This document shows positions 1,022 through 63,749 of a DNA stretch of 64,000 nt, in pieces. The stretch comes from Tachypleus tridentatus. Lineage: Eukaryota; Arthropoda; Merostomata; Xiphosura; Limulidae. The stretch is from the NCBI RefSeq assembly GCF_004210375.1, contig NC_134825.1, positions 70,733,558-70,797,557 on the forward strand. Direction: 5' to 3'. Position 1 is the first letter of the stretch. Every line of letters starts with the position of its first letter. The notes under the pieces are model-generated. The model did not search any database, was not told where the DNA came from, and was given only the letters and a program-made list of their open reading frames with translations. The translations under genes and the position numbers were made by a program.

Positions 1022-1149
1022 GTAAGCATAAAGCTACCCCAAAGGCAATATGTGCTCTGCCCAATATGAGTACTGAAACCTTGTTTCTAGCCTTTTAAGT
1101 CTGTTTACGTCCTGTTGGAACATTGGGGGGAAATGGGGTAATAAGAACT

Positions 1150-4496: not shown

Positions 4497-4535
4497 CATT
4501 GTGTAGCTTTGCGTTAAGAATAACAAAAACACTTG
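4497..4535 (+). mobile_element. SINE tail scrap
   Basis: The string TTGTGTAGCTTTGCGTTAAGAA equals the 3' tail of the window's main SINE family. The rest of the copy is not recognisable. Confidence 0.45.
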
Positions 4536-4667: not shown

Positions 4668-4952
4668 TTGTTTTGTTTTTGTTTTTGTTTTGGAATTTCG
4701 CACAAAGCTACACAAGGACTATCTGTGCTAGCCGTCCATAATTTAGCAGTGTAAGACTAGAGGGAAGGCAGCTAGTCATCACCACCCACCGCCAACTCTT
4801 GGGCTACTCTTTTACCAACGAATAGTGGGATTGACCGTAACATTATACACCTCCACGGCTGGGAGGGCGAGCATGTTTAGCGCGACGCGGGCGCGAACCC
4901 GCGACCCTCAGATTACGAGTCGCACGCCTTACGCGCTTGGGTATGCCAGGCC
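4668..4952 (-). mobile_element. Full-length tRNA-derived SINE with 12-bp target duplication
   Basis: The tRNA-like head is at the right end and the tail (T-rich on +, AAACAAAA on -) at the left, so the element points to the - strand. The head keeps the B-box GGGTTCGCGCC-like region and the anticodon-loop sequence CTCGTAA. The same TACATCAGTAGT occurs at 4656-4667 and 4953-4964, a perfect 12-base target-site duplication. Confidence 0.9.
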
Positions 4953-5084: not shown

Positions 5085-6370
5085 AAATCTTTCAAGAAAT
5101 TACTGGTGATGTGGATTTGCCGCATCTGGATTTTAGAAAGCATTTGACAAGGTGCTACACATAGTGTCAGTTTAAAGCATAGGCCATCCAAGTAAAAAGA
5201 AAATCGTTCGTCAAAATACTAGAATAGAGGCAAGTGTGAATTACTATTATTATTCCCAAATATTACCTTGGCTTAGGACCGTATTAAACCTTAATACAGC
5301 CACAGCTACACAACGGATTTATTCAAAAAATAGATACCTATAGGTGTGGTCAATAAACTTTCTTATCGGATGGCAAACTAGATGAATGGAAGAAAGCAGA
5401 GGATTCTTTACAAATTCACTTAATCTAGATGGTTGTCATAAATGTTTGCTGTTTTTGATTTAGATCATAACTTAGATGAAGGAATGTTTAATAAATTACT
5501 TAAATTTTCTGATGGTATTAAAGCTGTGAGGAGAATGCTGATTCTTTACAAAAGGATTTAGATTGTTTGATAAGATGAGTGAATAAATGACAGATGGTTT
5601 TCAGTTGTAATAAATACAAAATCGTGTATTTCATGTATTATAATTTGAATGATAAGTATAATATTGATGAGTTTTTTTTTTTATATAGAGCAAAGCCACA
5701 TTGGGCTATCTACTGTGTCCACCTTGTGGAATCTTTTCTTAGATTTTAGCATTGTAAGCCCGTAAACGTGTCATTGACCCACCTGGGAACATTTTTTATG
5801 GCAAGGATCATGATAGTGTTATAAAAAGTTCTTGGTGTTGTGTTTGATAGTGTCTTAAGCCGTCCAAGTAGTGTACTTGTCCGAGTTGCAAGACAAATAA
5901 AGTTTTTGTTTGTATCTAAACAAATACTAAATACAAGGCTAAATAGCTATTTATCATTTTATAGGTAGCTGGTTAGATCATATTTTAGGTATTGTGTTTA
6001 GTCTTGGGCTCATTACCTAAGGAAGGACATTGGGTTGTTTGAAAATGTTCTAAAGAATGATACTATAATAACACCTGGGATGTTATACAAGGATAGGATA
6101 AGACTTAAGACCTCTTAGTTTGTTTTATTTTGAAATTGAAGATGAGTTAGAGGGAGACCTGATGAAGATGTTTAATATTATCATATTATTTTGTATTTAA
6201 TGGTCAGTAAGGTGGAGCTATGGGAACAAATATAAATTTTGGCAGGACAGAAGCCATTTTTAGTTCAAAATGTTTTATTTTATTTTGCCTACAGGTAAGT
6301 AGCCTTTGGAATGGATTGCCTTTAGTTGTGATAAATACAGCAAGAGAAGGCTTGATAAGTATTTGAATGA
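5085..6370 (+). mobile_element. CR1-like LINE remnant, RT to 3' end
   Basis: Collinear pieces of a non-LTR ORF2 follow one another: a palm box starting HLDF near 5130, a thumb-like FRYCV near 5985, then a segment near 6125-6170 that fits the RRxRGDLIEVFKI box, and a WNGLPLVV-like end near 6310. Many stops are present. A tRNA-like SINE scrap at 5672-5800 interrupts it. Confidence 0.6.
5672..5800 (-). mobile_element. Second tRNA-derived SINE family, decayed copy
   Basis: AGAGCAAAGCCACATTGGGC and the following TATCTACTGTGTCCACC belong to a tRNA-like repeat that differs from the main SINE. The B-box side is mutated. A further scrap of the same family is at 56940-56992. Family identity is from memory of similar repeats. 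Confidence 0.4.
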
Positions 6371-6618: not shown

Positions 6619-6857
6619 TGGGCCCAAATGGTCGTGGGTTAAAATCCCCCGTCACACCAAATATGCTTGCCCTTTCAGCCGCGGGGGCGTTATAATGTGA
6701 TGGTCAATCCCACTATTCGTTGATAAAAGGGTAGTCCAAGAGTTGTCGGTGGGTAGTTATGACTAGCTGCCTTCCCTCTAGTCTTACACTATTAAATTAG
6801 GGCCGGCTAGCGCAGATAGCCCTTGTGTAGCTTTGCGCGAAATTCAAAAACAAACAA
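6619..6857 (+). mobile_element. SINE copy, truncated head, 10-bp target duplication
   Basis: The body (CCCACTATTCGTTGATAAAA) and tail (GCGCAGATAGCCCTTGTGTA) of the main SINE are intact, but most of the tRNA head is lost. GACTTCTTTT flanks it at 6609-6618 and 6858-6867. It is inserted between the Penelope-like RT remnant and the hammerhead-like motif. Confidence 0.88.
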
Positions 6858-9162: not shown

Positions 9163-9399
9163 GTTTGTTTTTAATTTCTCGTAAAGCTACTCGAGGGCTA
9201 TCTGCACTAGCCGTCCCTAATTTAATAGTGTAAGACTTGAGGAAGGCAGCTAGTCATCACCACCGAATAGTGGGATTGACTGTCACATTATAATGCCCCC
9301 ACAGCTGAAATGGCGAGAATATTTGGTGCAACCATGATTCGAACCCGCGACTCTCAGATTACGAGTCGAACGCCTTAACACGCTTGTCCATGCCGGGCC
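9163..9399 (-). mobile_element. SINE copy with 11-bp target duplication
   Basis: The head is at the right end (CGAACCCGCGACTCTCAG on +). The body has a deletion of about 35 bases between CATCACCACC and GAATAGTGGG. CTTAGTTTAGA occurs at 9152-9162 and again at 9400-9410. Confidence 0.88.
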
Positions 9400-10273: not shown

Positions 10274-10500
10274 GGGGCCTGGCATGGTCAAGCGTGTTAA
10301 GGCGTTCGACTCGTAATCTGAGGGTCGCGGGTTCGAATCAAGGTCGCACCAAATATTCTTGCCATTTCAGTTGTGGGGGCGTTATAAGTGACGGTCAATC
10401 CCACTATTCATTGGTAAAAGAGTAGTCCAAGAGTTGGCGGTGGGTGGTGATGACTAGCTGCCTTTCCTCTAGTCTTACACTGCTAAATTAGGGACGGCTC
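10274..10500 (+). mobile_element. SINE copy, 3' tail missing
   Basis: It has a well-preserved head (GGCCTGGCATGGTCAAGCGT, GGGTTCGAATC) and body. The similarity stops at GGGACGGCT and continues into an unrelated stretch. No target duplication is visible, so it looks like a recombined or deleted copy. Confidence 0.8.
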
Positions 10501-10779
10501 GGTGCAGTGGGCTAACAACCTACTCACTTAAATACTTGTTGAAGAATTTGCAAGCGATTGCGGCCCTATGTTCCTAGATGGAATCTAATGGTGATAAATA
10601 CCAAAGAATTTTGGAAAACATTTTGATTTCAAGAAAAAGGAGGTTCTAGTTTCAGTTTTTCATACATTGATTGCTGAAGAGAAAAACTGGGAATTAGAAA
10701 ACATTCTGGTTTTAATGAAATTCCAGTGATCTGATTTTGAGGGATTCCACTGTGGTAATCAGCATATCTGAAATCAATC

Positions 10780-11969: not shown

Positions 11970-12950
11970 GCAAGTCCCTTTGTGTTGGACAATTTTAAAC
12001 AGACTCAATCTTACATAAGTCAGAAGACATTATTTCTTCACTGATTACGTGTCCCAGGAAACTTACCTATTTGAGGAATAATTCACACATCTCCTTCCTC
12101 AACTGATTCACAATATTGTTAGCCCATTTTAAGTATTTTCAAAAGCTTTCTCATGTACAATTACGTGATCCAAGTAGATGAATATAACATTTCATAGTTC
12201 AAAGAGATGACACATTCCATTATGTAGTCGGCATGGCTTGGTGGTTAGAGTGCTCGACTTGCGATCTTAAGGTCACGGGTTCGAATCCCCGCCAGATCAA
12301 ACATGCTTGCCGTTTTAGCCGTGGAGACGATATAATGTGATGATCAAAGTTGGCGGTGGATGGTGATGACCAGATATCTTCCCTCTAGTCTTACAATGCT
12401 AAATTAGGGTTGGCTGGCGCAGACAACCCTCGAGTGGATTTGCATGAAAATTCAGAAATAAATAAACAAAATCATTAAAATGTAGCAGGCATCTTACATG
12501 CTTCATTTCCTTCATTAAAGGTTGCCTTCTATCCACTTCCTTTATTGACTTGCACATCCAAATATCCGATTTTCAGATTCAAAGTTCAAATATATTTTAA
12601 TTCAGATAGAACATCCAAAGTAGAATTAGTCCTTGACAATGAGTAAGCATCCTTTTTTCTGACTTCATTCACGTTCTGATATTCCATATAAAAACTTATT
12701 GATCCATCCTTCTTCTCTGTTTAGTTCTATTGCTCCTTCGTGACTCCTATTTCATTGTAATTCTCTATCTGTTTGGCAAGTTGTAGTTATCTGGTTATTT
12801 GACATACTGTAGTCACATCTCCAGTACCACCATAATATTACCTATACATCATGAGGTGTAGGGAATCTTCTTCCGATAAAGGAAGCTTCCAACTTTCTTC
12901 TTGCTGGAACTTTACGCTCACTTGCAATTTGCATCAGCATACCTACTTTC
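11970..12950 (-). mobile_element. Ty3/gypsy RT remnant, opposite strand, split by a SINE
   Basis: On the - strand, KKDGSIRF-like and KKDAYSLSRTNSTLD (near 12650-12700) precede NLKIGYLDVQV. After the SINE at 12228-12478, YIHLDHVIVHEKAFE and VSFLGHVISEE follow. This is the order of gypsy RT boxes; the first Asp of the YLDD box is kept but the second is His. Confidence 0.65.
12228..12478 (+). mobile_element. SINE copy with variant tRNA head, inside gypsy remnant
   Basis: The head reads GGCATGGCTTGGTGGTTAGA...GGGTTCGAATCCCC, with a stronger tRNA A-box and a different anticodon loop than the other copies. The body lacks the CCCACTATTC block. The tail ends AAATAAATAAACAAAA. It splits a - strand Ty3/gypsy RT remnant. 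Confidence 0.8.
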
Positions 12951-20200: not shown

Positions 20201-23200
20201 GATTGCACTTGTGTGCCTTCCCACCAATTTGTCTGTAACAGAGATTTTTTGTTGTGTTTAAATCCCCTTTGGTGTGGATTCCTGTACATGGTGAGGGAAC
20301 CTTCTTGGGAAGGTTCTGTTCTTTCAGTTTACCTCCTCTGGGATTTAAACATCCACCCACATGTTTGCCGTGCATGGCAACCCATGAAGTGGAGGAGATG
20401 ATCCTGGTGGTTGAGAGGTCCAACCCTAACACACCACTTTGGTCTTGAATTCCTGTAGACGGGTGGTCTTGGGGTGGCCCCCCTTGAGTCTGTTGGATGG
20501 CCCACTTGGGCTAGGGTCAACAAAGTACCAGTGTTGGATGTTCTCAACAGGTGTTGTGGACATTGTATCTGATACTGGTGTTTGGGTATAGTGCTCACAA
20601 AACCCTGGAGTTGCTGCAGTATCCTTGTTTGGCATTGTAGTGCCTCCCCTCATGGGGCTCCATGGTGAATGGGGTCAGTGGGCACCAAAATTCCCCTTTC
20701 CTTATTATGGATACTCCAATTGAAAATCTTAATAAAATAGTGAAAAAACAGTCTATATGTAAATGACCACATCTTGAAGTTGGATCCTAAGACTGGCAGC
20801 AAGAGAAGGTGATAGTTTTCTCACTTCTATAACTGCTTCGACCCTGCTAGAGTTGTTTTGTAATCACCAAAAGGCATTTCATTTTACTTTGTTTTTGTTT
20901 ATTGAGAATCATATTTTGACTTTTTACAGGAAATACATTCAGTAGTTAACATTATATTACATAAATAAAGCAGAACCATTAAGTCAAAATTCCAAATAAT
21001 GAGATTTAATATCAGTAAAGAAACTCTGATTTCTCTCATTAATCTTATCGTGACATGCATAGATTCTCTTTAAGGTTTAAAAGGCTGGTATACTGTACTA
21101 CAAGTTACTTGTGGACAAACAAAATATTACATATGACTCATTAAAGTTATTAAAGCAAGCTCAGTAACAGATAATTTATTTGAGTACTGACACATGACAC
21201 CAAAAATGAATTCATGATATTGTGTATCAAATTATTATTTCACATACAGTAGAAAATGGCTAAATTTGAGCATTGACATTTATAATGTTTATAAAAAGTA
21301 GTTTGTCTAACTATAAGCAGTCCTGTTTACCACATAATAATTTTTCAAAACAGTAATAAAATTAGGATATTATTTTTCATGGAGAGTTTCTGTTTTATAG
21401 GTTCAGAAGTTAACCCAGATGAAGCTATTCTTGCACAAGTAAAAGAAATTGAGAGAGAGGTAAGGTGGTGTGTAGACTTAAAACTGTGCACATATTTAAA
21501 TATTTATTTGGTAAAACCTTAATTAATGGGCACCTTGACACAACAGGCATTCTACCATTTAGGGCAGACTTTTTTAGTCTCTTTCTTTTTCTACTATTTG
21601 TAACCAAAATAAATATCACAATAATAGTCACCTTGATATTCTGGTTATGGAAAGTGTCTTTAGTTTCATTTTTAATATTTTTAAGATTTTATCAAATAAA
21701 TTTATTCATAACAGTGTAAGTACTCAGAATCTTTGTTTTTCAAAGGTGTTTTTATTTATTTTCTATGTTTTAATAGAAATAACAAAAATTTAAGCATTTG
21801 TGAATAATGGTTGATGAATAAATTTGCTGAAAGAGAAAGAGGATTTTATAACTGTGGCACATTTTTTATATTGAGAGCATCTTGCTTTTGAGGGCATTTG
21901 GATGCAGTCAGAAAAGTGCTCTTAATGTCAAGGTTATACTGTACGTAAGCATATGTTTCAATCTATATATGCAAATGTACATTGTATGCTATCTACAAAT
22001 TCTTAAGTTTTGATATTTTTAAGATTTTAGAAATGGAATAATGATCTTTATATACATATAACTTATCCCATTTTTATGTATATAATAAAATAGGAAAAGC
22101 TGTATGTTTATAAATGTATTTATTGTTATATTTAGATTGCAGATGTGGTTCCTCTGATTGGGCCTCTAATTGATTTGTCCTGCCTTCAGAATGAGTATGC
22201 AGATGATGATAAGATATACATACAAAAAATAAAGGTAATGCACCAGTTTCATATGTCTGTCAGAACATCTTTTATTAAATTCTGAAACAACATGTGAATA
22301 GATGATAATTTAGTGATTAGATGAAAAACTCCACTAATTAATAAATCTTCAGTGGTGTAATGGGTTAGGTTTTGTATACACAAATTCCAAACAACACATT
22401 TAGATTTGTGAGCTTTAAGGTTAACTTCTCTTGGTGAAATTCAACTTTAGCTTTAAAAATGTTTTAAACTAAATAATCCAGTACAAAATGTCCCAACTTT
22501 TAGTTCTTTTGGTAGCAAAGTTATATAACTACCCTTTCAAAGGAATGTTATACTTTGTTAATTTTGTTTTCATTTCTGTATATGTACAGTGTTAAGCTTT
22601 CTTGTTTCTATGCTAATAGTTTTTTGTGTAAATAGTTATCAAAATATCAAGAATAAGAAATCAAGATATACTGAGAAATTAAAAGAGCTTAAAAGCTAAT
22701 TATTTTACTTAAAAAATATGAAGTTAATCTGATAACTGTAAAAAAAAATTTTTGTACTTACACCAGTTGTTTATCACTAATTTTGAATTTTGTCAAGTTT
22801 AAAATTTATGAAAATCTCTCCAGTTTACATTTGAATTTTGAGAAAAAAAAATGACAGTGGAAGTTTTTAATTTTCTAATATAAAGGTTCAGAATGATTTT
22901 TTATATAGATGAACCACAAAACTATTACTTTACTTTAAAACATGTATTGTTTTATTCAGTAACCCTCTCTTCATGTCACGAGGTTTTAGTGTACTACCTT
23001 CAAAATTTAATTGAACTACTTTCTTTTCAGAGTATGCACAATAAATATGGCATAAAAGTGTAATTAATAATTCATATTTTAGTAGTACTTAAGTTTTAAA
23101 TTGTTACTTTTATAAGGCAATATTTAAAAAAAAAAATCTGGAATTTCCTCTAGTGGGAGAATTGTGAGATTTGCTCTCTGGGCATCCCTTTTTCTATAAT

Positions 23201-26200: not shown

Positions 26201-29200
26201 AATTTTTAAGATCCCAAGGTCAACCTCTAAATCTCAAGATCTTGAGAAAAGCCCAAAGAGTAGGAATGCTGCACGTAAAACTTTCTGAATTATTATTTTT
26301 ACTTTTTACATTATAAATTGTGAATTTTCAATTAGGCTGTTAGGATTTTTTGTTATTGGAATGTTGTAATAATTTGTTGGCATACTTACAACTTGGCTTG
26401 GCCCACTTTGAGACTTTCATTGGGTTGTGGTTAATGTTAATATTTTACTCAGTTGCATAAAATTAACTGTGATTGATAGTTAACTCAGTCATTGTTAACT
26501 AAAGTGTGTTTTAGTTTGTGTGTTATTGCTAAGTTGTTTGCTTTTAGTGTTAGTATTTTTTATACAACATACAACTATGTATTTGTTTGGCACTCTATTT
26601 AAGAGAACATGAATTAGATATAAGAGTACTAAATCTTGAACCATAACCCTAAAACTTTCATCTGGCTAGTAGTAAAGTATTGTTTACTATTGGCATGTGG
26701 AAGTTTTAAAATTTAAATAAAGATTTTGTCATTAAAACTTGGAGAACTACTGAGGTTGCCTAGAAATGATCTAAGCTTCATGTGATCATACATGAAGCAG
26801 TAATCTAGGGTTATAAATGCATGTTTTGTATTTGTATGAGTGTGGTCAATTCCAAGTTATTATAGTTCATTTATCTAGGATTTGAAAAACAAATACCAGT
26901 TCATGCGAAGGACAAGACCAGATGGTAACTGCTTTTTCAGAGCCTTTAGCTTTGCTTATCTTGAAAGTTTACTACATGACAAACAAGAATATCTCAGGTA
27001 GGTTTTGCAAAAAAGTATGTAAGTTCTCTTTGGAAAGAGTTTGTGAACTGTTTGGTCTTTATTGTTCAGTGTGTTATAGTTAACTAAAGCTTTCAAAGCA
27101 AGGGTATATATCTTTCAAAAATCAATAGCCAAAATTCCAATACAGTACATTACCTGTGCTCACATAAATAGCTATTCTTGTTTAGTGCTGCCCTCCGTAT
27201 GCAAAAATGTTTTATGGATGCCACGAGCCTTGAAACTCCCATGTTCTTTACATTCAGTTTATTCAAATGCATCTCGCATGCAAGTCATCATGTGACAACC
27301 CTCCACCACTAAGAGTGCAACACTATCCTGACATGTGACTTCTTCTATTAGATCCTACTTAACTGTTACTTCTTGTTTGGTGTACTAATTCTGTAACATT
27401 AGTTTGTGCTTTCTTCAAGTTTTTTGTTTTCCATACTTTTATCAGCTTTTATCACCATGTTTATTATTTATTATACAGAAGTGACTTTTGTATCTTGTTG
27501 AGTTATTCTGAAGTGGAATTCTTTTATATTTCTTCTGAGTTACAGAACTTGTTACTTCAATACAAAAATTTTTTATTTCACTGTTGTGTTTGGTTATTAA
27601 TTTTGAATTACAAATTACAAATTCTCACTTAAGAGATTATGTGCTCTATCAACACATTTACATAGATTTTAGCTGATGTACTGCACAGGAAATTATTGGC
27701 TTTATTTTTGTGGGAGACGGATTATTCAATGAACTGACCCTTGTTGGGCCTCTCCTTACTTTTGAGGACTCACACTTTTTGAAATACAGTCTGCAAATTT
27801 GGAAAGACATGATGTTATACTGTTATGATTTTTAATAATTTTATTGTTAATGTAATACAATTTCCTATAGTTATTTGGATTCCATAACAAGTTTCATTTG
27901 ATTGGTTTGTACTCATCAAGTTCATGTTTGAAATTAGGCTTACTTGTATCCTTTGTCATATATCATTTGCTTAGGCTTGCTATGAGTCTTAGTCATTATA
28001 GGATTACCTATAATTGATCTTACTGGTACACCAATCATTAGTTTAAATATATTTTGTTCCCTCCATACACCACATCTTGTATGTATGTTATTAATACACA
28101 CTTACTTCATTTTATAAAATAACATGTTTCATTTTCTTTATTGTTTATCTTTTATATTTCTTCATATTAACTAGGTTTGTGTAGAACTTTTGAATTGAGT
28201 TTGATATAAATTTCTTTTCCCAATATTGTACATACTTGTTAGATTAAGATTTTTATTTTAGAGCTTAGTGATATCCTTTGTCTAGCACTATTCAGTTAGG
28301 CTTAACAAGTGTATGTTATTTTTGATTTACTTGTATTTCTACTTATGGGTTAATTAGTAATTAGGTTACGCATCTTGTTTTCTTCAATTTGTAACATCCA
28401 CTACATATGCTTTTTCATAATAAAATTTTTAACATTTACCAAATATTGACTGTTTCATTTTTTTGTTTATTTTATTTAATTTATGATTTATATTTCTTAC
28501 CATTACCTTCATTTGTGAGGAACCTTGGAGGCCAGGATCCACACTATTTGCTCTCAGAAGTGCTTCTCTTCCTCCTACAAAGGCTGAACTCATTTCATAT
28601 GACTGAGATGTTTTCACTTTTCCTCCACCTGGTCATGGATTACCTTCCAGATCTCTACTGCAGAATTTTCTAGGCCTATCTCAGTTTGGTTTGTTTTAGA
28701 TGCATTTCACAGAATATTCCTCTTCATCTCTTGACATTGCTTCATGATGATCTTTTTATCTTTCTTTCAACAGTGGTACTTGCAAGCTTTTCCCTACAAG
28801 GTGTTAATTCTTTTTGCCATGGCTCACCATCAGGCAGTTGTTCTTTTTAATTTATTTTATTTGGATCTCTGTTAATCCTATGTATTTTATTTCCTACCTA
28901 GTTCTTCAGCTTCATATTACTCCATGGCCTGGCATGGCCAAGCTTGTTGAGGCGTGCGACTCGTAATCTGAGGATTGCAGGTTCACATCCCGATCGCGCC
29001 AAACATGCTCGCCCTTTCAGCCTTGGGGGCATTATAATGTGACTGTAAATCCCACTATTCATTGGTAAAAGAGTAGCCCAAGAGTTGGCAGTGGATGGTG
29101 ATGACTAGCTACCTTCCCTCTAGTCTTACACTGCTAAATTAGGGATGGCTAACACAGATAGCCCTTGAGTAGCTTTGTGTGAAATTCAAAAAAACAAACA

Positions 29201-32200: not shown

Positions 32201-35200
32201 CCATGTGCAGTAGATCATTCCCTAGCCACTCTACATTTGTAGGAACATCCTTTTATTTACATCTACCTTGATGCACAAAGAGATTGAGATTCATATATTA
32301 TGTGGTTTGGATCCCTGTTGAATTATAGTACTCTTTTGGATGAACTCCTCCCAATTTCTACCCATATCTGTGACATCTTTTTTTTTTTTTTTTTTTTTAC
32401 ACTGAGCAAAGAGTATACCTGGTACAGAAGTGGTGTATAATTCTTTGTGTCAGGATTTACTCTTTTATTGAGTCTTTCAGATCTGTCTTTCACTTGTGGT
32501 GGTCCCTCCACCTATTCAGTGTGGTATTTTATAATGTATATAAATTTATAATTTCTCTATACTGAACATGTAATTCTGATAGGTACTTACTTCCTTTTGC
32601 CCTTTCCACCCATTCTCTTCAATGAAAACTGATGCTTCCGTTTATGCCAAAACTCGAAGTAATAGTTCATTAGAATTGAACAGAAAGAATTGCATGCATC
32701 AGTAGAGTGTATCACGCTCTTATCCCCTCAGTGTGGATTCCTGTACGTGGTGAGGGGACCTCTCAAGGAAGATTCTGTTCTTTCTGTTTACCTCCTCTGG
32801 TGACCTGTGAAGGGGAGGAGAGGATCCTGATGGTTGAGGGGTCCAACCCTAACACACCACATTGGTCTTGAATTCCCGTAGGTGGGTCGCCTTTGGGTGG
32901 CCACCTCTAGGGTCAACTAAGTACCAGTGTTGGATGTTCTCAACAGGTGTTGTGGTCATTGTAACTGATGCTGGTGTTTGGGTATAGTGCTTATGAAACC
33001 CTGGTGTTGCTGCAGTGTCCTTGTTTGGCATTGTAGTACATCCCCTCATAGAACTTCATGGTAGGTGAAGTCAATTGGTACTGAAATACTACTTTTTTAT
33101 TATGAATCTTCCAAATAAAAACTTAAATAGTGAAAAAACATTCCATAGGTAAATTTCCACATCTAGGAGATTCTGAGCAACAATCTTCAACATCTATACT
33201 TCATTTTCTTATACTACATTCTCTTTCAGACAAACCTTTAGGGCAAATGCCTCTCTCTTTTTCATTCAGAAGAGACTAGAGGGACTTGCTGGCTCTTCAA
33301 ACTTAGTCAAAAAGTTTCATCTGGCAGCATATTGGTGGAAACATCCACATCTCAACACAGTGAACTTCTGTTGCATTTAAAGGCAATTGGGGATATACCT
33401 GTTGAGTATAAGCCTCATGTTACTTTGAATTCATCACAAGGAGTTATTGTGGAGAGGGATTTGAAGAACATCCCCGAGTCAGGGTTTCTCGCTGGTTTCT
33501 CCACCCAAGGAGTTTCTGCAGTGAGGCATATCTCCACTCATAAAGATGGAATTATGATGCCAACCAATGTTTTCATTTTAACATTTACATCACCTTGTTC
33601 ACCTGCCACCATCAAGGCAGGTTATCTTAATTGCAAGGTATGGCCATACATTCCCAACCCTCTCAGATGTTTCCAGTGTCAGCAGTTTGGTCACTCGAAG
33701 ACATCATGTTGAGGTTCCTTGACATGTGCACATTGCATTGGCAAGGACCAAGATGCCTGTGAGTGTGAAATGGACCCTCATTGTGTTAGACCTGCCCTAT
33801 TGACCCAGGGCAATATCTGTGGAGGTTGACAGACCTCCCTTGAATAAAGACAATAAAGAAAAAAGACATGGTCGTAAACAGAAGATTTCCCCACCTAACT
33901 TGCCTACACATAAATAAAAATAGCCACCTTGATACAATGGCACTGTCGAAGTTTACATTCTAATGTGGATTACATCAAAGCACTGATTGCTTCCTACCAT
34001 CCTGATTGTCTTACAGGAAAAATTTATGAAACCTACTGATACAGTCACCTTTTGGCAGTTTTATTCAACACATCCTTGGAGGCTGTAGACATCACTGTTT
34101 GTTCTCTCTACCTGTCGCCTGGAGAAACTGATGAGCAATCAGCCTTTGATGCTCTCACTGAAAAGTTGCTGTCTCCATTTTTAATCCTGGGGGACTTTAA
34201 TGGGCATCATCCCCTTTGGGGAAATGCTGATATTGATGGGAGGGGTTGCTCCATAGATCATATGCTCTCTGATTCTAACCTCTCTCTTTTCAATACTGGT
34301 TTTTATACTAGTTTTCATGCACCTAGTTAGTCCTATACTGCTATTGATCTCTCAAGTTGCTCCCCTTCACTATTCTCCTACTTTTCATGGAGGGTTGACA
34401 GTAACTCACAAGGCAGTGATCATTTTCCTATAATTTTGAGAGAGACTGGCTGTGGTCAATGCCACCCAACCTGCATGCACCGGTGGAAGCTGGATCAAGC
34501 AAACTGGCCCTCTTTCACTACTCTCGCAGAACTTGATCCTGCCATTGTCTGTAAGACATCAGTAGACAACTGTCTGGCAACAGTAACTGACTGTATTATA
34601 CAGCGTTTTTCTAAAACCTCAACACATTTTCCACAATATCCTTGTCCATGGTGCAATCCTGCCTACCACATGGCATGGAAGGCTCAAAAACGGGCCTGGG
34701 ATACTTTACGTAGGTATCTCACACTCTTGATCTCCATCGCTTTTCAGCAGGCCCATGCACATGCTTGGCAGGTAAGATGTCAAAGCCAGAAGGACTCTTG
34801 GATTAAGTTCACAACCAGCATATCTTCTATCACCAGTTCCAAAGTCATATGGGATAAGATTCGAAAGGTTAGTCAGCAATATAATTCTGTGCCCCTCTCA
34901 ATCTTGCTCTCTGATGGCCAGGAAGTAGCTGATACTCGGGGCATCACCAATACTATAGGTGAAAGCTTTTGCCAGGTATCTAGCACTTCTGCTTCATCCT
35001 CAACCTTCTTGACCATTGAGACTAGGGCAAAGTGATCACTTTTTTCCTTTTGAGCTGATTGTCTTTGTGATTATAATCATCCTTTTATACTGGTGGAATT
35101 CAAACTGGCCTTTCATCAGTATGGTAGTGCATTGGTCAGATCTTATGATATACTCTATGAAATACTGCACCATCTGTCTCCTGCTTTTCTTACTATTTTT

Positions 35201-38200
35201 CTGATTGTTTTTAACTTGATCTGATAGGAGAATGTTTTTCCTGATGCTTGGCACCAGGCCATTGTCCTACCTTTCTCTAAGTCTGGGAAGTGTCCCAAGA
35301 ATCCTTCAAACTACCGTCCAATTACTTTGACAGCTGTCTTTGTAATACCTTAGAGAGGATGGTTAATGCTCGTCTTGTTTGGTTCCTTGAATCAAACAAC
35401 CTACTATCGCTCATCCAGTGTTGGTTCAGGTGATAGTATTCCACTATGGACCACCTGATTCGACTTAACATCAATCAGAGAAGCCTTTCTCAAATGACAA
35501 CATCTTGTATCAATATTCTTTGACATTGAGAAGGCTTATGATACAACATGGAGGTATGACATTTTGCGAGACCTTCATATATATGGATTAGGTAGCCATT
35601 TGCTCATTCTTATTAAACATATTTTCTGGACAGGCAATTCCAAGTTCATGTGGGTTTGACACTTTCCTTTTTTTTTTCTACAGGAACTTGGAGTCCTTTA
35701 GGGTTGTGTTTTGAGTGCCACACTTTTCAGTATAAAGATTAATGCCACCACTGAACAACTCGCTCTTACTATTCAAATGGGCTATTTGTTGACGACTTCC
35801 GCATCTCGTGTCAGTTGTCGAGCATGAGGTATATTGAGCAGCAGCTACAGACTACCCTGAGTCATTTACTGAAGTGGACAACAGTAAACAGTTCTAACTT
35901 CTCTCTCTCTAAAACCATTTGCGTGTGCTTTTGACACCACCAGGGTATTCAGTCTGATCCTGAACTTCGTATTGGTGAGGTTGTGCTACGTGTGGTCCCT
36001 GAGACAAAGTTCTTGGGGCTTGTCCTTGACTGTAAACTTATCTTTATACCACACATCAAACAGCTATGGGTCAAATGTACAAGAGCACTGAATATCCTCC
36101 ATGTCCTCTCTTCCAACATTTGGGGAGCAGATCAATGTTCTGTGCTAAAGATATATCGTGCTCTTATTTGATTAAAACTAGACTATGGATCACTGGTCTA
36201 AGGCTCTGCCAGGACCTTGGCCTTTAAGATGTTGAACCCTGTTCATCATCAAGGACCTCTGCTCTGCACCAGGGCTTTCCACACTTCCCCAGTTCAGAGC
36301 TTATACACAGAGGCTCGTGAACCTCCTCTACATCTCTGCCGTTTGCAGCTGCCTTTATTGTATGCTTCTAAACTTCGTTCTTTACCAAAGCATCCCACCT
36401 GGGGTTGTGTTTCCTCCCTCAGTGAGCCATGTTTTTTCAGAACAGACGATCTACCATTGCTCTTTGTGTCTTTTGTATCCAGGTGAAGTTGTATGAACAT
36501 TGCTGTATCCACTGGTTAGCCCTTCCCATCATTATTACAGCCCCCAAGTATGACCTTTCTTTAAGTCATCTGAGAAAAGCAGATACTCCTGATTGGAAAT
36601 ACTGTCTGTTATTTGCTGAACATCTTTTGAATGATCCTTCCTTTCCTATTTATATGGATGGTTGAAAATTAGGTGACTCTGTGGGCTCTGTCATGGTTTG
36701 TTGTGTGCAAAATCCTCTCTTCAGTTTCTGTGTTCACTGCTGAACTGTATGCCATTTCTCTTGCCCTAGATCACATGGAATCTAAGCAGTACTCAAATTG
36801 TACTCTTTATTCTGACTCGCTTAGTTCTCTACTGGTCCTGGAATCATTTCACATTAGTTCTCACCCTGTTATCACCGATATTTGAAACCAACTGGCCCAT
36901 TTCTCTTTCACATTTACTTCTATCCAGTTTTTCTTGATACCAGGCCTCATTGGTATTGGTGGGAATGGGCTCGCCGACATCGCAGCTAAATCTGTCTGCT
37001 CTGGCATTATCACTACTGTGCCTGATCCATATGTGGACTATGGTCCTGTATTCAAGGTTTGGCTCTGTGCCAGTTGTCAGTCAATTTAGAGAGAGCAATG
37101 TGAAAATGAGCTTTTTGAAATTAAACCCTCTATTGAACTTTGGCCATCCATAAGGATCAGAAAGAGGAAGTTGGCCTAACTAGACTACACATAGGTCAGA
37201 GTTTTTTTAACTCATTGTTTACTTTTATCTCGGACTGATGCACCAATGTGTTGTCTGTGTGATACTTGGGTCACAATAAGCCACATTTTACTGTCTTGCC
37301 GTTGTTACAATTCTCAACGATGGCACCAGTTTAAACATGCTTTGTACGAAGGTTTTTCTGTGACGTTAGACAGTGTTATTGGTGATTGTGACACTGTCCA
37401 TCTAGAAATATTTTTAGTTTTTTAAAAGTTATTAATCTTTTTAATGCTATTTAAGTTTTTTAATTTATACATCATACCTTTTTTTTAATGTGATTCCCAT
37501 TTTAAGACTCAAAGTACATCTAGTTTGACCTGAAATTAGAAAATGGTCGTAATGTTAAATAATTCAAAACCAGGACTGGAAAGGCTGACTTCAGGTGACT
37601 AATGCTGCTGTTTGAACTACCTGTTACTCATTGTGGTGAGTTATGATAATTACAATTATGCTACAGAAAGTCTTTTACAACTTGTATTACTGTAGTTTTT
37701 CTCTTACCACTATAGACTAGATGTAAAAATTGGATTTAATGTTATTTATGTTTTTAATTCAGATATTAAACTTTGTTTTGTTTTACCTTGATTTCCTTTT
37801 ATGAAATTATTTTGATAATTTTACTTTAATTTTAACTTTTTACCATATATTTGGTACAGATAGCCTAGTTGCTTTGTGCCATAAAACACCAAACCAACCA
37901 ACCACACTCTTATTGGTGGAGGGTTGGCATGTGATGATTTTGCATACAAGACACATTTGAATCATTTGAACCTTCCTTGAACCTTAGAGTCAAGGCTTAT
38001 AGCATGAGAAAAATATTTTTACATATAAAGGGCAGCACTGAATTGAAATAAGTTTTTATGTGAGTGGAATGAAATGCCTATTGGAAATAAATTTTTAATA
38101 TAGGAAAATTATAACATTCTAAAGATTATGCAGCCATTTAGAATTTAATGTTTAAGATAAACAACTATCTAGTTGTAATCAAATGTTAAAAGAAAGACCT

Positions 38201-41200
38201 TTTTTTAAATTTTTTTCTCTATTATTATTATTATTATTATTATCCCTGTGGGCCAAGGTCTATCTACTTGATAGTATTTCTATGTACAACAACTATTGTT
38301 TTTTGTATCTTAATTTTATGATAGTTTCCTGTTTACTGTAACAAAATTAAAGTTGTGTTGATAACCATTTAAAATTATGCATTGTAGAATTGCTAATAAT
38401 GCAAAAAGTGAAAATTATACATTGGTTGTGCCAAATTTTTATGCAAATCTTATCTAAAGTAAAAACATAATATTGAAGAGCTTGTTTGGTATAATTAATG
38501 TATTTCCATCATTGTCAACAGTTTAATGCTTATTTTTTTAACGAAATAAAAACAATGAACTCAGTTTTTGACCTTAGATGTCTTTTGACAGGCCATTAAT
38601 CAGATTTTCTAAGTAGTTCTTGTAATGCTGGTTTATGTTTGACTTTACTAATTTTAGAAATTCAGAATTTGATCATGCAGTGACTGTGCTGCTAACCTAT
38701 GATTGTGTAGCAATAGGTAAATTATGTAAAAAAACAATATGGCTTTATAAGCACATTCATCCTGTTACAACTGGTGAGCAGCTGTCACTTGTTGAATGCA
38801 TATTTGCATATAAAATTTCCAAATTAAGATTAAAATACATAATATTTCTAACTATAAAGTTTTAACTCCACAATATTTTAGAATTGGTATGTTGTCACTT
38901 TTTAGTATTTATTCATTGTAATTTCTAAAGAAAAAAGAACATTTACAATCACATTTCTACACTACTTGGAGATGCCTTCCCTGTAAACAACATGGTGCCA
39001 TTTAAATTGTCAAACTGTGAACACAGGCAGACATGTGTAACATATATAAAAGTGAGTTTGTTGCCTTTTTGACATGTTTACCATAAGTAGAAAACTTGAA
39101 ATAGTATATTATAAAATTACATTAAGAACTTGCTTTTTTTTTTCTGTTTCATTTTAATTTATTTATATAAAGTTATGTTTTTCTGATTTATTTCTTATCA
39201 AAGAATTTTGGAAAATTGGTGAATGACATTTTTATGCCTGCAGATTTAAAACTGTTGTTGCCAGAAGTAAACAAGATTTAATTGCCTTAGGATTTCCTCA
39301 ATTTACTATAGAAGATTTTCATGATACAGTAAGTATTTAATTACATCTTTTTTGACACAAGTCTTTCTGTTATGCATTAAATATTATTACTAAATGTACA
39401 AAGCTTATTTAAAAACTAGACATTGAGATTTTTGAACAGTTTCTAACTTTTATCTGATTTGACAGTTTTTATAAAAGTTTTGTTTGTCTAAACACAAAAC
39501 TTTAATTTGGTTTTTTCTTTTCTGTGTTAATTGATATTTTTTCATTGTATTATAACATAAGAGGTTTAAAAATGTGGACTTTTTCTGTTTATTTTAAATA
39601 TAATGACTTAGTTGTTTTAGTTAAATAATTATTTACTTTCCCTCAGTTCTTGGAAGTACTAAATAAAATTGAGTCACAGATATCAGAAGAAGAACTCCTT
39701 AATATACTGAATGACCAGGGATACTCAGACTACATTGTGGTATATATGAGGTAAGAGAAATACAGATATTTTAGTATTTGTATCAACTTATTTTACTTTA
39801 TTTTTTTCATTTAATCATGCATTGTATTTGCTTTGCTTTATTTTGTCTTTGAACACCCTAAGTAAATTATTATCATTTGCATATTTGACAATAAGAACTT
39901 TGGTGTGAAGTTTACAAATCGTAAGTACTTGATTTCTCTTCTCCTATAGATTGTGTACTATTATAGTACTTTTGTAAATTCAGTTTCATATATTGAACAG
40001 TTAACTATTGTATAGCTTGTTACTGATATTTATAGGAAATTTCCAAATGATAAATTCAGTTTCTATCTGTAGCATTATCAACCTTTAGGCAATCAGTGCA
40101 TTTCCAATATTCTTCTTTGAGTTATTTTAATGAAAGTAGAATATGTAAGTTGTGGAAGTGGGTGATGTATGAGGAGAAATATTATAAACTAAAAGTAACT
40201 TGTAACTATTCTGAACATGACTGATTCTGTTTATAAAACATTGTAACTTGTCTTAAGTGTTTAAGTTAAGTATGGGCTGTGCTTATTAGCAAGAAATCTC
40301 ATAGTAAATAATAATAAAAATTCAATTTTCGTTTTATTTTGTTTCTGGTATTGCAGGGCATCTAAATAAATTCATATTCTGAAAATAATCTTGGACTTAA
40401 ACCCAATTTGGATGTTATCTTTTATGTTTTATAAAAATTAAGCAGCTACAAAACATACTAATGAAATTGATGGTGACATGACAGCATTTATGTTGAAAAC
40501 TAAAAACGTGATTAAATGCATAAAAGATAGGCCCAACATGGCTGGGTGGTTAGGGTGCTTGACTCATAATCTGTGAGTTCTGAGTTAAAATTCACCTTGC
40601 ACCAAACATGCTTGCCATTTTAGCTGTGGGGGCATTATAATGTAACAGGCAATTTCACTATTCATTGTTAAAAGAGTAGCCCAAGTGTTAGCAGTGGGTT
40701 GTGATGACTAGCTGTCTTCCCTCTATTCTGACACATTTCAATTAGGGATGGCTAGCACAGATAGCTGTTGTGTAGCTTTGTGCAAAATTCAAACCAAACA
40801 AACAAAAGACTGGTAAAATTTATTTTGTAGAGTAGTAAAGAAACTACATTAAGTGAAGTTTAAAAATATTTCTCAGACTGTATTTACTGTGAATTGCTTT
40901 AAGTCAAGGATGTTATTGAACAGCTATAAACTCAAGTAAAATAAAAAGTTAAATACATACACAGTAACAAGTATAAGAAAGCAAAAATAAAACAGATTTT
41001 AGTTAATAATTTTGGGCTTCTATCAGAGAAAAGTGACACAGAAAAAGAAATTAACAAATGCCCGTGGAAGAAAAAAGATAAAACAATAAATTACATAACT
41101 ACTGTGAGAATACCTAACATTTATTTGTGTGTTAAACTATTCTTTCAAAAAGTCATGACCAATAGATAAGTTTTGTTTTTCCCATTTCCTCATTTTTTGT

Positions 41201-45556: not shown

Positions 45557-45773
45557 TCCCCATCACACTAAACATGCTCACCCTTTCAGCTGTGGGGGTA
45601 TTATAATTTGACAGTCAATCCCACTATTCATTAGTAAAAGGGTAGCCCAAGAGGTTGCAGTGGAGGATGATGACTAGCTGCCTTCCCTCCAGTCTTACAC
45701 TACTAAATTAGGGACAGCTAATGCAGATAGTCCTCATGTGGCTTTGCACAAAATTCAAAACAAATCAAACCAA
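45557..45773 (+). mobile_element. 5'-truncated SINE with 12-bp target duplication
   Basis: The body and tail are present without a tRNA head. TCTGTCTCCCTC flanks it at 45545-45556 and 45774-45785, so the truncation happened at insertion. It lies inside a stretch with other tRNA-like remains. Confidence 0.88.
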
Positions 45774-56300: not shown

Positions 56301-59300
56301 AACAGTTACCCTATTTTTAGTTTAAAGTAATTCTATTAAATAACAATGAAAAAACAGGACATGTCACCTGATATTAAATAAATTATTACTTGATTATGAC
56401 AATTAAAACATATGCTGTTATCATACAAAAGTAATAGCTAAAATTTACTTACTAATTTTTCTCTGGCAGAAAGAAGCTGATAGTTTGGTAATGTTGAAAT
56501 GTCAACCTCTTTAATTTCTTCTTTTAAAACTGTTTTTTCTAAAAAAATAAAAAATATTAATTCTATACAATCCATTATTACAACATACATTCACAAGTTA
56601 AAACTTCAGATCAATAATAATGCACTTTTACTTTTTTAAATAAACATTTTCACTTTCTGTTTGAATAACATACACTGAATTGCTAGAAGGTAATTAATTT
56701 AATTTACAATTCTGTTCACACATGTACAACAATTCTAAAAGACTGATAAACTTTTAAGCTCAGTATGTAACATCAGGAAAATCTAAAACTTCTATCTGAT
56801 CTCTCCTTTCAACTCATCTACAAAATAAAACAGACAGTGGAAAGCTTACACGCCATTCACTTGTGGTGAATATTGCATTAAAGCAGTTAAAAAAAAAAAA
56901 CAAATTGATTCATTACTGGAATTTAATTTGGGAAATACTTCGTTTTTTTATTAGAACAAATCCACATTAAACTATCTGCTGTGTCCTTAGACATACTGCT
57001 GCTAATTCATACTGCTGCTAATTCATACTGAAAATCTTTTTTTTTTGTTGTTGTTTTTTCATATTCCCAGCCTTAAATAGTTTTAAAACAGTAACTTTTA
57101 ATGTTGGTGGTGTCAAAAAGGTGACTGGCTGTTTTAATACACTTGGTTCATGATTAAAGTATTGTTTTGTTTTGAAAAGTATTATTTTAAAATAATTTTA
57201 TTATTGTACCAAGAATGAAAACAGACTGCAAAAAATCAGGTGTTCAGTAGCATAAATTACTAAAGTATGTTTCCAAAAAAATGTTCAACTTTTAATTATA
57301 CTTTTTGCATGTATGTAATATTGATATATTTTCAATATTAATATCGTAAGTATAAAAAAAATGATATTGGTTCACTTTTCTATTTACGTCAGTCTTACTA
57401 TAAATATATATATTGCTTGCTTCAGCTATATTTATATTTCTAATATGCTTGGACTTATTTATAACTGTATCCCTTCTTTTAGCTGCAATTTATTAATTGC
57501 TTTAATATCTAGACTAAAGCTCCTCTCTTCCTATCAGAACATACACAAAAACAGTGATGAAAGAATTAAACAAACTATATGTTTATTAACATAACACCCC
57601 CAACAGACACAACATACCCAACCAGTAAAAACATTATCTACTGAAACCAGTGATGTCGAGACAACCCACTTGTGGAGAAAAATATATGTAAAAACGGCTC
57701 GTTTGGGTCAGTTACCTCTTCCTTTCTTTGTGAACCTGACGATGACCGAAGAAGGTCAAAACGTTGTTCGCTCCTCTACATATATATTTTTATCTATTGA
57801 AACAACAAGTATTGCATACAATGACCTGGTAGAGTTCTAATCCAACTATTCCACACATTCTCTCTAAACTACCACATGTGAAGTATCACAAAAATAAAAG
57901 TAATTATATCACCAACTCATGTCTATGGTGACTACTTTATCTGATGATACAAGCTGCAATGAACAAATAGTTACCTTGTTTATCTTGCCCACTTTCTCCA
58001 TCTTTTTCTCTATCAAGACAGAAAAAATGAAATACAATAGTTAAAACTGAAAAAAATAGTCAACAATATAAATGAAAAGACATGAAAACGAAACCCTGCA
58101 TTATGACACTTGATAACTGTCACACCTGTTAACTTTTTAAATAGGAAAAGTTTCATCAATAAACATAAAAGGAAAGTTAGTAAAACTGAAAAGCATTGGG
58201 TGCATTTTAATTAGCAATCATATATTTATAAACATGAAATACTAGAACTACAATGTCACCAAATCTTATGTACTGTGTGAACTCCTGATGAATGCTGGTG
58301 TTTATATTTAATCTGAGAAAATATCAACAGCCATATTTTATTTTATTTTGATGCATTTTGAAAATTCAGTTTATAATTTAAACAGTACAATTATTGTAAA
58401 ATTTTCAAACTCAGAAAATATTGTTGCCCAAATTTTATATTAAACAAATTATTACAAATAAGAACTTAAACAAAATCAACTTTATTAATCTTTGTGAAAC
58501 TCTTTCAACCTCTTAATTTTTTGAACAATAATACTAGAGCATAATTTGGTATGCAATCATTTAATTAATGTCACTTCAATAACATCTAAGTATTCATAGT
58601 ATGCTACCTTTACTATCAATATCAATTCCTATAAAATCGTTGCATACTAAATTCTGCCAAGCTTGTTCCATGTTACAATATGAGAACTGTCCAAGGAATA
58701 TCACAATACCCAAATATCACAAGATGAAAGAAGCATTATTGAAATTATCTACAAACACCATTACTTACTCTGGTTTCTTTGATACAAGAGTTGACCTTCT
58801 GTGTACTGACCCACTACTACCCTATAAAAAAAAGGTAACAAATTTAACTTCATTTTTTATTGTGTAGCAAGCAGAAAGACTAATTAACTCTCTCAACTTG
58901 GGCTCAGTTAATTTGGCCTCTCTATATTCATTTAAAGTTTTTATAGATTTAATACTTCCAACTTTCAATATAGTGTGTACATCGTCACAAAATCTGACAG
59001 TTTTTCACTTAATTTGATACATCTTTCACATACAAAAAAAATCACATTTTTAGTGAAGTATTTGTTCTGAATAGTCTGCATGCAAATTGATTTTCATGTT
59101 AATATTAAAAATATTTTTCATGTCAAATTTCCTTCCGTAATCCCTAAAAAAACAATAAATAATTCCAAATGACTTTTTTTAGATTCTAGAATGACTTTAA
59201 ATTGTAACATAAAACTACCTCCATTTATGTTAAAAAGTTTTATGCTTGTAACAGTATACATCTATTTATAATTTAATTTTTTTTGCCCTTTGAACCATGA

Positions 59301-61084: not shown

Positions 61085-61348
61085 TGTTTTGTTTTGAATT
61101 TCGTGCAAAGCTAAACAAGGGCTATCTGTACTAACCATCCCTAATTTATAGTGTAAGACTAGAGAGAAGACGGCTATTTGTCATCACCCACTGCCAACTC
61201 TTGGGCTACTCTTTTACCAACGAATAGTGGGATTGACCGTCACATTATAACACAGCTGAAAGGGCAAGCACATTTGGTGCAACAGGGATTCAAACCCAGG
61301 ACCCTTGGATTACTAGTGCTTTAACCACCTGGCCATGATGGGCCTAAA
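61085..61348 (-). mobile_element. SINE copy with 9-bp target duplication
   Basis: A reverse copy between TADA2B exons and the Tc1-like element. GCAATACAT occurs at 61076-61084 and 61349-61357. The head at the right end is mutated. Confidence 0.85.
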
Positions 61349-62380: not shown

Positions 62381-63749
62381 CACTGCTGGCCAAAATCTTA
62401 AGGCCAATGAACATGAAGAAAAAATATGCATTTTGCATTGTTAGACTCAACCACTTATTTGAGTAGAGCTTCAAAAGATGATAATAAGAAAAGGGAAAAT
62501 AAAAATAAATGTTTTAGCATTTAATAGGGAAAATGTGAACACTATGAAATTAGCCTAAATACTAGCTGGTTAAAAGTTTAAGACCATACAAAAATGAAGC
62601 ATTAATCGGTAAACACATTACGAAATTTAGTCATTTGTGTTCAAGCATTAGCATTGTCAACATCTCCCACTGAAATCTCCACTGTTACACTGGGTAAAAA
62701 CATGGCAAAGGCTAAAAAGTTCACAGAGTTTGAATGTGGCAGAATTGTTGGGCTGCAAAAGCAAGGTCTCTTTCAGTTTGCCATCGCTGGTGAGATTGGG
62801 CATAGTAAAACTGCTGTTGTAAATTTCTTAAAAGACTCTGAGGGATATGGAATGAGAATTTCAAGTGGTAGGCCCATGAAAATTTCGCCAGCGTTAAGCA
62901 CGAGGATTCAACGGGTTGTCCAGCAAAACACCAGCCGATCATTGAACCAGATTAAGGCCCTTACAGACACAGAATGCAGCTCAAGAACAATAAAATGGCA
63001 TTTACGAGAAAAAGGCTTTAAAAACTGTGGAGGAGGTTCCATCATGATCTGGGGTGCTTTCTCCTTCTATGGAACAATGGAGCTTCAGATTATACAGGGA
63101 CGTCAAACAGCAGTTGGCTACATTGGCATGTTGAAGAAAGCATCATTATTGATTGAAGGCCCTTGCTTGTGTGGAAATGACTGGATCTTTCAGTGAGACA
63201 AACATGCAATCCACAATGCCCACAGGAGAAAGGACTTTTTCATAGCGAATAACGTGATTCTTTTGGACCATCCAGCATGTTTGCCCGAACTGAACCCCAT
63301 TGAAAATGTTTGGGGGTGGATGGCAAGGGATGTTTATAGAAATGTACGTCAATTCCAAGCAGTGCATGATCTTTGTGAAGCTATCTTCACCACTTGGAAT
63401 AACATTGAAGCCAGCCTTCTGCAAACACTTATATCGACCATGCCAAAGTGAATGCATGAAGTTATTTGCAATGACGGCCGTGCAACTCACTACTGAGACC
63501 TCTTGCTGGGCGTTTCATATCCTGTTTTGGACTTCTTTTTCGTATGGTCTTAAAGTTTTAACCAGCTAGTATTTAGGCTAATTTCATAGTGTTCACATTT
63601 TCCCTATTAAATAAAACATTTATTTTTATTTTCCCTTTTCTTATTATCATCTTTTGAAGCTCTACTCAAATAAGTGGTTGAGTCTAACAATGCAAAATGC
63701 ATATTTTTTTCTTTATGTTCATTGGCCTTAAGATTTTGGCCATCAGTGT
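62381..63749 (+). mobile_element. Tc1-like (IS630/Tc1/mariner) transposon, internally deleted
   Basis: Inverted repeats of about 208 bases (62381-62589 and 63542-63749) share CTTAAGGCCAATGAACAT at their outer parts and CCAGCTAGTATTTAGGCT at their inner parts. Alternating TA runs flank both ends, consistent with TA target use. The element encloses a broken transposase. Its long repeats and deleted gene suggest a non-autonomous copy. Confidence 0.92.
62702..63451 (+). pseudogene. Tc1-like transposase, deleted and interrupted
   Basis: The start is MAKAKKFTEFECGRIVGL, a helix-turn-helix DNA-binding start of Tc1 type. The frame is open to KGFKN, then jumps to CGGGSIMIWGAFSFYG. The segment expected between them, holding the first catalytic Asp, is missing (about 90 residues). 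The frame is kept across the deletion. A TGA at 63194-63196 interrupts the region before the second Asp (codon 63197-63199). The catalytic Glu in NPIENVW is codon 63302-63304, so the spacing is 34 residues (DD34E). The frame ends at 63451. Confidence 0.88.

Follow-up and report, generated by a model that had tools for sequence, protein, structure and literature searches.

A 3' tail hairpin shared by a probable I-type LINE lineage and at least three tRNA-like SINE families in Tachypleus tridentatus

The window, the 64,000-nucleotide stretch of Tachypleus tridentatus DNA analyzed here (assembly GCF_004210375.1, contig NC_134825.1, positions 70,733,558 to 70,797,557 of the forward strand), contains the remains of a LINE, nine copies of a tRNA-like SINE (SINE-A), and tails assigned to two further tRNA-like SINEs, SINE-B and SINE-C, which carry the same kind of hairpin with different stem letters. 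The features are as follows.

33242..37422 (+), broken LINE coding remains with many stops and frame breaks (open-frame reading)
34040..34327 (+), LINE endonuclease piece (PF14529, E 2.8e-11)
36673..36882 (+), weak LINE RNase H remnant (PF13456, E 0.03; genomic copy L018 above the cut-off, PF00075, E 2.1e-7)
37430..37852 (+), 3' UTR of the LINE (40 scored out of 5238 first-look genome candidates)
37853..37880 (+), hairpin in the 3' tail of the window LINE, GGTACA - GATAGCCTAGTTGCTT - TGTGCC (letters; covariance model; MFE -9.3 kcal/mol, z -2.30)
37881..37903 (+), end repeat of the window LINE, ATAAAACACCAAACCAACCAACC (letters)
6620..6850 (+), SINE-A copy used as the query, with the 10-nt repeat GACTTCTTTT on each flank (self-match, direct-repeat script)
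6809..6839 (+), SINE-A tail hairpin GCGCA/TGCGC (letters, covariance model)
4699..4729 (-), SINE-A tail GCACA/TGTGC (covariance model)
9178..9208 (-), decayed SINE-A tail (covariance model)
29151..29181 (+), SINE-A tail ACACA/TGTGT (covariance model)
40754..40784 (+), SINE-A tail GCACA/TGTGC (covariance model)
45720..45750 (+), SINE-A tail ATGCA/TGCAC, one pair broken (covariance model)
61102..61132 (-), SINE-A tail GTACA/TGCAC, one pair broken (covariance model)
12271..12458 (+), SINE-A copy, its tail decayed and missed by the covariance model (self-match)
10323..10499 (+), SINE-A body with unrelated sequence in place of the tail (self-match)
5687..5716 (-), SINE-C tail hairpin ACAGTA/TGCTCT (genome copies, covariance model)
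56953..56982 (-), C-type tail, assigned by eye (covariance model)
1025..1056 (-), decayed B-type tail, assigned by eye (covariance model, E 0.0072)

An endonuclease and an RNase H in ORF2 are the mark of the I group of LINEs. The window LINE has the endonuclease and a weak RNase H remnant, and the RNase H is above the cut-off in the genomic copy L018; the reverse transcriptase was recognized by eye only, a Pfam reverse transcriptase match being absent from the pieces given. In the 1.5 kb or so upstream of the UTR in 30 genomic copies, the longest open stretch had 222 codons and by eye was foreign to the LINE, so none of these copies looks intact. The divergence of the family from its UTR consensus had a median of 8.4% (39 copies), and the direct-repeat script found no convincing target duplication for the window LINE. 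As part of the wider explanation developed below, the window LINE is probably a dead copy from an older family of an endonuclease- and RNase-H-bearing I-type lineage. A stretch at 20604-20774 is a 78% match to 33000-33165, which precedes the LINE coding remains, and is perhaps the 5' part of a second LINE; a 196-codon open frame at 62606-63196 resembles, by eye, a fragment of a Tc1/mariner transposase.

Copies of each family were collected from the genome (2,167 Mb in 205 contigs). First-look candidates numbered 4854 for SINE-A, 5238 for the LINE 3' UTR, 1089 for SINE-C, 3939 for SINE-B, and 1367 for the 3' end of a second LINE, LINE-Y; 40 were scored for each query, so that the scored sets are the best hits to one copy. 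The SINE-A consensus (60 copies) has a B-box-like GGGTTCGAATCC, identified by eye, followed by a long body and then the tail, which is marked by AGCCCTCGTGTAGCTTTGCGCGAAATTC and an AAAC end. The central domain may be of the MetaSINE type (Nishihara et al. 2016). ARAGORN, run on the window, reported no tRNA. The 3' ends of the other two families are GGGCAGAGCACAGATAGCCCATTGTGTAGCTTTGTGCTTAATTC for SINE-B (21 copies) and GTGGACACAGTAGATAGCCCAATGTGGCTTTGCTCT or GCTAT for SINE-C (30 copies).

The nine window SINE-A copies differ from the consensus by 8-20%, and all have the tail except the one at 10323. Six of the eight tailed copies carry direct repeats of 9-12 nt where the A-rich tail ends, a count made with no shuffle control; they are as expected for target-primed insertion. 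The same script returned no convincing repeats for the other two tailed SINE-A copies, the two C-type copies, or the B-type copy in the window. The body of the tailless SINE-A (10323-10556) stops just before the stem, at GGCT, and runs into unrelated sequence that has no hairpin, which points to an exchanged tail or to a break; this foreign end did not recur in 0.33 Mb of examined sequence. At 4499-4513, 15 exact SINE-tail letters (TTGTGTAGCTTTGCG) stand without a 5' arm and are perhaps the remnant of a B-type tail. At one genomic locus, L035, two SINE-B-type tails lie tail to tail (2370-2401 on the plus strand and 2427-2459 on the minus strand) with 25 bases between them.

The window LINE ends in GGTACAGATAGCCTAGTTGCTTTGTGCC followed by ATAAAACACCAAACCAACCAACC, and the SINE-A copy at 6620 ends in AGCGCAGATAGCCCTTGTGTAGCTTTGCGCG followed by AAATTCAAAAACAAAC. 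Common to both, inside the hairpin, is the core GCAGATAGCC...GCTTTG, a short stretch of about 21 letters in two blocks that is found in eight of the nine SINE-A copies. The original prediction had described a tail hairpin common to the LINE and the SINEs of the window, with stems GGTAC/GTGCC at 37853-37857/37876-37880 and GCGCA/TGCGC at 6810-6814/6834-6838, and the letters and positions of these stems were read correctly. The register was not, as the two five-pair stems are offset by one pair; in register, the LINE stem has six pairs (GGTACA/TGTGCC) and the SINE-A stem five. The order of the elements is likewise the same in the two tails, but their spacing, also given as the same, differs: the arms are separated by 16 bases in the LINE and by 19 in SINE-A, whose hairpin and loop are thus three bases longer. 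The SINEs, treated as one group, belong to at least three families, the shared tail being present in the eight SINE-A copies and in tails that by eye are of the B or C type.

Each pair of consensus tails (67-71 nt long) was compared by local alignment and set against 1000 dinucleotide shuffles. Tails that aligned no better than shuffled controls had been named beforehand as evidence against a relationship; the window LINE family (L) and SINE-A scored 15.5, whereas the best of 1000 shuffles reached 12.5. The scores for L with SINE-B (18) and SINE-C (15), and for LINE-Y with SINE-A (17) and SINE-B (13), were also reached by none of 1000 shuffles, whereas that for LINE-Y with SINE-C was weak (11, equaled by 28 of 1000). 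That short tails rich in A+T and decayed at CpG sites are alike by chance, as the small size of the shared core might suggest, is very improbable given these scores and the covariation across families described below. The 35-place LINE tail pattern GGNNCAGATAGCCTAGTTGCTTTGNNCCATAAAAC matched the genome exactly 320 times and its reversal never, which also speaks against chance but shows a family rather than its tie to the SINEs. The likeness of the LINE and SINE tails is real.

A covariance model of the tail, trained on rows that included the window LINE, one window SINE-C, and five window SINE-A copies, recovered 11 window tails with E <=0.0072: the LINE, seven SINE-A, two C-type, and one B-type. 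Rfam gave no matches, and three tail patterns had no matches in viral contigs. Eight matches of tail patterns in bacterial genome contigs were taken as chance; on the eight bacterial loci picked by these sites, the covariance model returned only the same eight sites.

The fold itself was examined in 157 aligned tails (39 L, 60 A, 21 B, 30 C, and 7 Y), of which 150 had both arms complete. The structure tested, an outer stem of six pairs and an inner stem of three, was scored for covariation in 62 distinct tails (14 each of L, A, B, and C, 4 of Y, and two window tails). Cells that pair made up 88.2% in these tails versus 79.8% in shuffled ones, two-sided changes occurred in 61 cells versus 19.3 across the five families, and the covariation score was 0.320 versus 0.178, with none of 500 shuffles as high; when the partners were slid by 1-3 columns as a control, the score fell to 0.020-0.141. 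Measures that count pairs or pair types were not above shuffles (4 versus 3.5 and 13 versus 12.5). By majority, both LINEs have G-C at pair 1, where SINE-B and SINE-C have A-T and SINE-A an unpaired A-G; pair 2 is unpaired in SINE-C; pair 3 is C-G, T-A, or A-T; and pair 4 is G-C, A-T, or G-T. These changes between families are few independent events that were inherited by many copies. RNAalifold predicted outer pairs 3-6, extended inward by G-U and A-U pairs, and did not predict pairs 1-2 or the inner three-pair stem. Folded singly, the two LINE tails were more stable than their shuffles (z -2.30 and -3.01), whereas the SINE tails stood out only weakly (z -1.15 to -1.43). The stem is maintained through two-sided changes across five families, and a tail hairpin common to the LINE and the SINEs, shared and folded as originally described, is borne out.

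The same does not hold for the specific stems of the window LINE and SINE-A, whose differing but paired letters had been read as compensatory. In the first 100 of the 320 exact pattern matches (contigs C1-C4), which were unselected by stem letters, the commonest LINE stem was GGCGCA/TGCGCC (24 of 100), or CG/CG when written as the dinucleotides of the 5' and 3' arms, and the state of the window LINE, TA/TG, occurred twice. Compensation between these two stems is rejected because the commonest LINE stem carries the letters of SINE-A. The difference is best read as CpG decay of a LINE stem that would have started with the same letters as SINE-A, and the 5' arm of LINE-Y, GGCGCA, agrees with these common starting letters.

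Covariation of the stem within the LINE family, which had been proposed as a check, appeared among the best hits and was lost in the wider list. Among the 39 best hits to the window LINE, CA/TG was commonest (13) and CG/CG was found in only 2; in the 33 that remained without near-duplicates, the counts were CA/TG 10, TG/CA 8, TG/TG 2, and CA/CA 2 (Fisher p 0.008), the coupling of the two arm dinucleotides ranked first of 55 CpG site pairs, and both pairs were Watson-Crick in 20 of 26 versus 10.6. In the first 100 of the 320 tails, the counts were instead CA/TG 9, TG/CA 2, TG/TG 14, and CA/CA 9, with a dinucleotide association in the opposite direction (p 0.03); both pairs were Watson-Crick in 35 of 82 versus 28.4 expected (p 0.08), or 62 versus 59.7 when wobble pairs were counted (p 0.22). 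A coupled stem change inside the LINE family is therefore not claimed, and the lesson is that coupling seen among best hits can vanish in a list not picked by stem letters. The inner branches of a tree of the 39 LINE UTRs were short and mostly unsupported, such that the tree cannot decide the coupling. The excess of TG/TG (14) and CA/CA (9) over TG/CA (2) in the list of 100 may reflect subfamilies or strand-biased decay per copy. In SINE-A, both pairs were Watson-Crick in 32 of 40 copies versus 19.1, in a set consisting largely of the top matches to a single query; the coupled type GCACA/TGTGC accounted for 10 copies, and this apparent coupling may come from one subfamily.

A search of the genome for RNase H domains gave 1019 candidates, of which 150 were scored and all 150 were over the cut-off; 20 of these had an internal stop, and open frames extended up to 1040 aa. 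Nine of ten matches traced downstream belonged to one family, LINE-Y, which is a relative of the window LINE and whose members were 88-97% alike. A tail of the LINE-Y type, GGCGCA or GGCACA - GATAGCCTCGCTGCTT - TGTGCC - ATAAAACACTAAATC(AATC)n or a near variant, was present in seven of the ten and absent from the stretch read in two LINE-Y copies and the one unrelated match. The best 40 of the 1367 candidate LINE-Y 3' ends, with the query among them, were 96-100% identical to the query, which indicates that the family moved recently. LINE-Y is thus a young sister of the window LINE family that retains long open frames and has the same hairpin. Its 3' UTR contains repeated stretches of about 200 bp in L117, L120, and other copies, spaced by about 205-335 bp and mostly 72-93% alike.

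A shared 3' tail is the usual sign of a SINE mobilized by the enzyme of a LINE, and LINEs of the stringent type bind a stem-loop near the 3' end of their RNA. In the explanation that we consider likely from the sequence evidence, several SINEs were served by an I-type, RNase-H-bearing LINE lineage whose enzyme recognizes the tail stringently. The arrangement GGCGCA-GATAGCC-loop-GCTT-TGCGCC before a short end repeat would be the 3' recognition element of this lineage; the LINE reverse transcriptase would bind the tail hairpin on the RNA, and copying would begin in the end repeat at the nicked target. SINEs A, B, and C carry a related hairpin, so they could be copied by the same LINE enzyme. What was observed is the shared tail, the conserved fold, the flanking repeats of SINE-A, and the young sister with long open frames; the binding of the hairpin, the use of the enzyme, and the pairing of LINE to SINE families are inferred. 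In stringent LINE/SINE pairs, the two partners have a common 3'-terminal sequence, a conserved stem-loop, and the same end repeat. Here the terminal sequence is shared and the outer stem is conserved, with weak folds in single SINEs, but the end repeats differ, being AACC in L, AATC in LINE-Y, AAAC in SINE-A, AAC/AAAC-like in SINE-B, and AAAC or AC in SINE-C.

The original prediction had named the family of the window LINE as the engine of the SINE. The shared and folded tail agrees with this role, but LINE-Y has the same hairpin and scores similarly against SINE-A (17 versus 15.5), and neither family has the SINE end repeat. The divergence of the window SINE-A copies, which is at least that of the sampled L copies and greater than that of LINE-Y (all samples being best hits), is a hint that L or a cousin of it spread them. 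The tail scores were 45 between L and LINE-Y and 32, 28.5, and 23 for A-B, B-C, and A-C, respectively. The SINE tails are thus closer to each other (23-32) than to any LINE (11-18); they form a group of their own, and neither LINE stands out.

The covariance model found 120 matches in 72 loci (0.21 Mb), chosen around known copies. Fifty-five were classified by their upstream body after exclusion of query copies (some of which stayed among the 55), LINE-Y ends fetched for their tails, the two SINE-B tails of L035, and a duplicate in L026. The classes were 28 A, 9 C, 3 L, 3 B, 2 Y, and 10 without a body. It is possible, if appreciably less probable than service by the L and Y lineage, that another, unseen LINE with a tail nearer to those of the SINEs was the true partner and that L and LINE-Y are its cousins. 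The gap between the SINE-SINE scores and those of any SINE-LINE pair (<=18) and the difference in end repeats are what such a partner would explain; the 55 classified tails, all from sequence around known copies, contained no third LINE, such as one with the clearly closer tail that the original prediction had named as its refutation. Falling only a little short of even is the proposal that the SINEs owe their tail to a single acquisition from an old LINE and to later spread among themselves by head exchange, with the match to L and LINE-Y recording the donor lineage. Related tails on heads of unlike sequence and the clustering of the SINE tails point this way, whereas the stem letters differ among A, B, and C, and the tails are therefore not recent exchanges. 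This proposal concerns the origin of the tail; it does not conflict with LINE-dependent movement and is compatible with service of the SINEs by the I-type lineage.

Among the ten body-less tails, two were by eye LINE tails that began exactly at the first stem base, and the rest were SINE-like. At L011 (286-313, plus strand), a hairpin with its end repeat, 46 nt in all, is inserted between 11-nt repeats (CTTTTACTGAA), a result equaled by 4 of 200 random stretches of that locus. A weaker case at L101 (2623-2650, minus strand) has the 7-nt repeat GATTGTA, equaled by 23 of 200; at most of the other tail-only sites examined, the repeat was no better than chance. The one clear case suggests that the hairpin and end repeat suffice to be copied. 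A bolder and somewhat doubtful extension is that at least three tRNA-like SINEs acquired one hairpin module of the RNase-H LINE lineage, its stems rewritten but paired, that it is enough with its end repeat for reverse transcription and insertion, and that the enzyme may read the stem shape and the constant GATAGCC...GCTT while largely ignoring the stem sequence.

Tail pairs have already been named for CR1, RTE, L2, Tad1, and plant L1 LINEs in the portions of the literature consulted. The available excerpt of the horseshoe crab genome paper treats SINEs as a small part of the repeats and does not describe SINE families (PMC7815833), and titles and abstract openings held no description of this pair, its clade, or horseshoe-crab SINEs; the MetaSINE work, cited in the excerpt of a bivalve transposon paper (PMC10294476), may hold one.

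As excerpted, accounts of the stringent pairs of UnaL2 (eel) and ZfL2-1/ZfL2-2 (zebrafish) describe the same common 3' tail of a stem-loop followed by a short repeat. Deletion of the stem-loop abolishes movement of the ZfL2 elements, and ZfL2-1 given the stem of ZfL2-2 keeps about half of its activity, whereas a change in the loop is far costlier (PMC4176376, excerpted text). This tolerance is consistent with the present tails, in which the stem varies and the inner letters stay constant. In contrast, the ZfL2 elements are of the L2 clade and have been tested for retrotransposition, whereas the present LINE bears an RNase H, is known from sequence alone, and differs from the SINEs in its end repeat. 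A comparable compensated hairpin is found in plant L1-clade LINE/SINE pairs, in which the stem of a related tail of about 50 nt changes in a compensatory manner and letters of the loop and flanks are conserved (Ohshima 2013, PMC3747384); those pairs differ in clade and in being from plants. The Drosophila I element and other I-clade LINEs have the ORF2 endonuclease and RNase H that were both found here. TAA repeats form the end of the I element (PMC3747384), whereas the present LINEs, which are probably of the I type, have AACC or AATC after the hairpin. A young open-framed RNase-H LINE together with three SINE heads on one hairpin offers material to test what a LINE enzyme reads, whether stem shape, loop letters, or end repeat, and the LINE/SINE pair described here adds a good new case to an arrangement already known.
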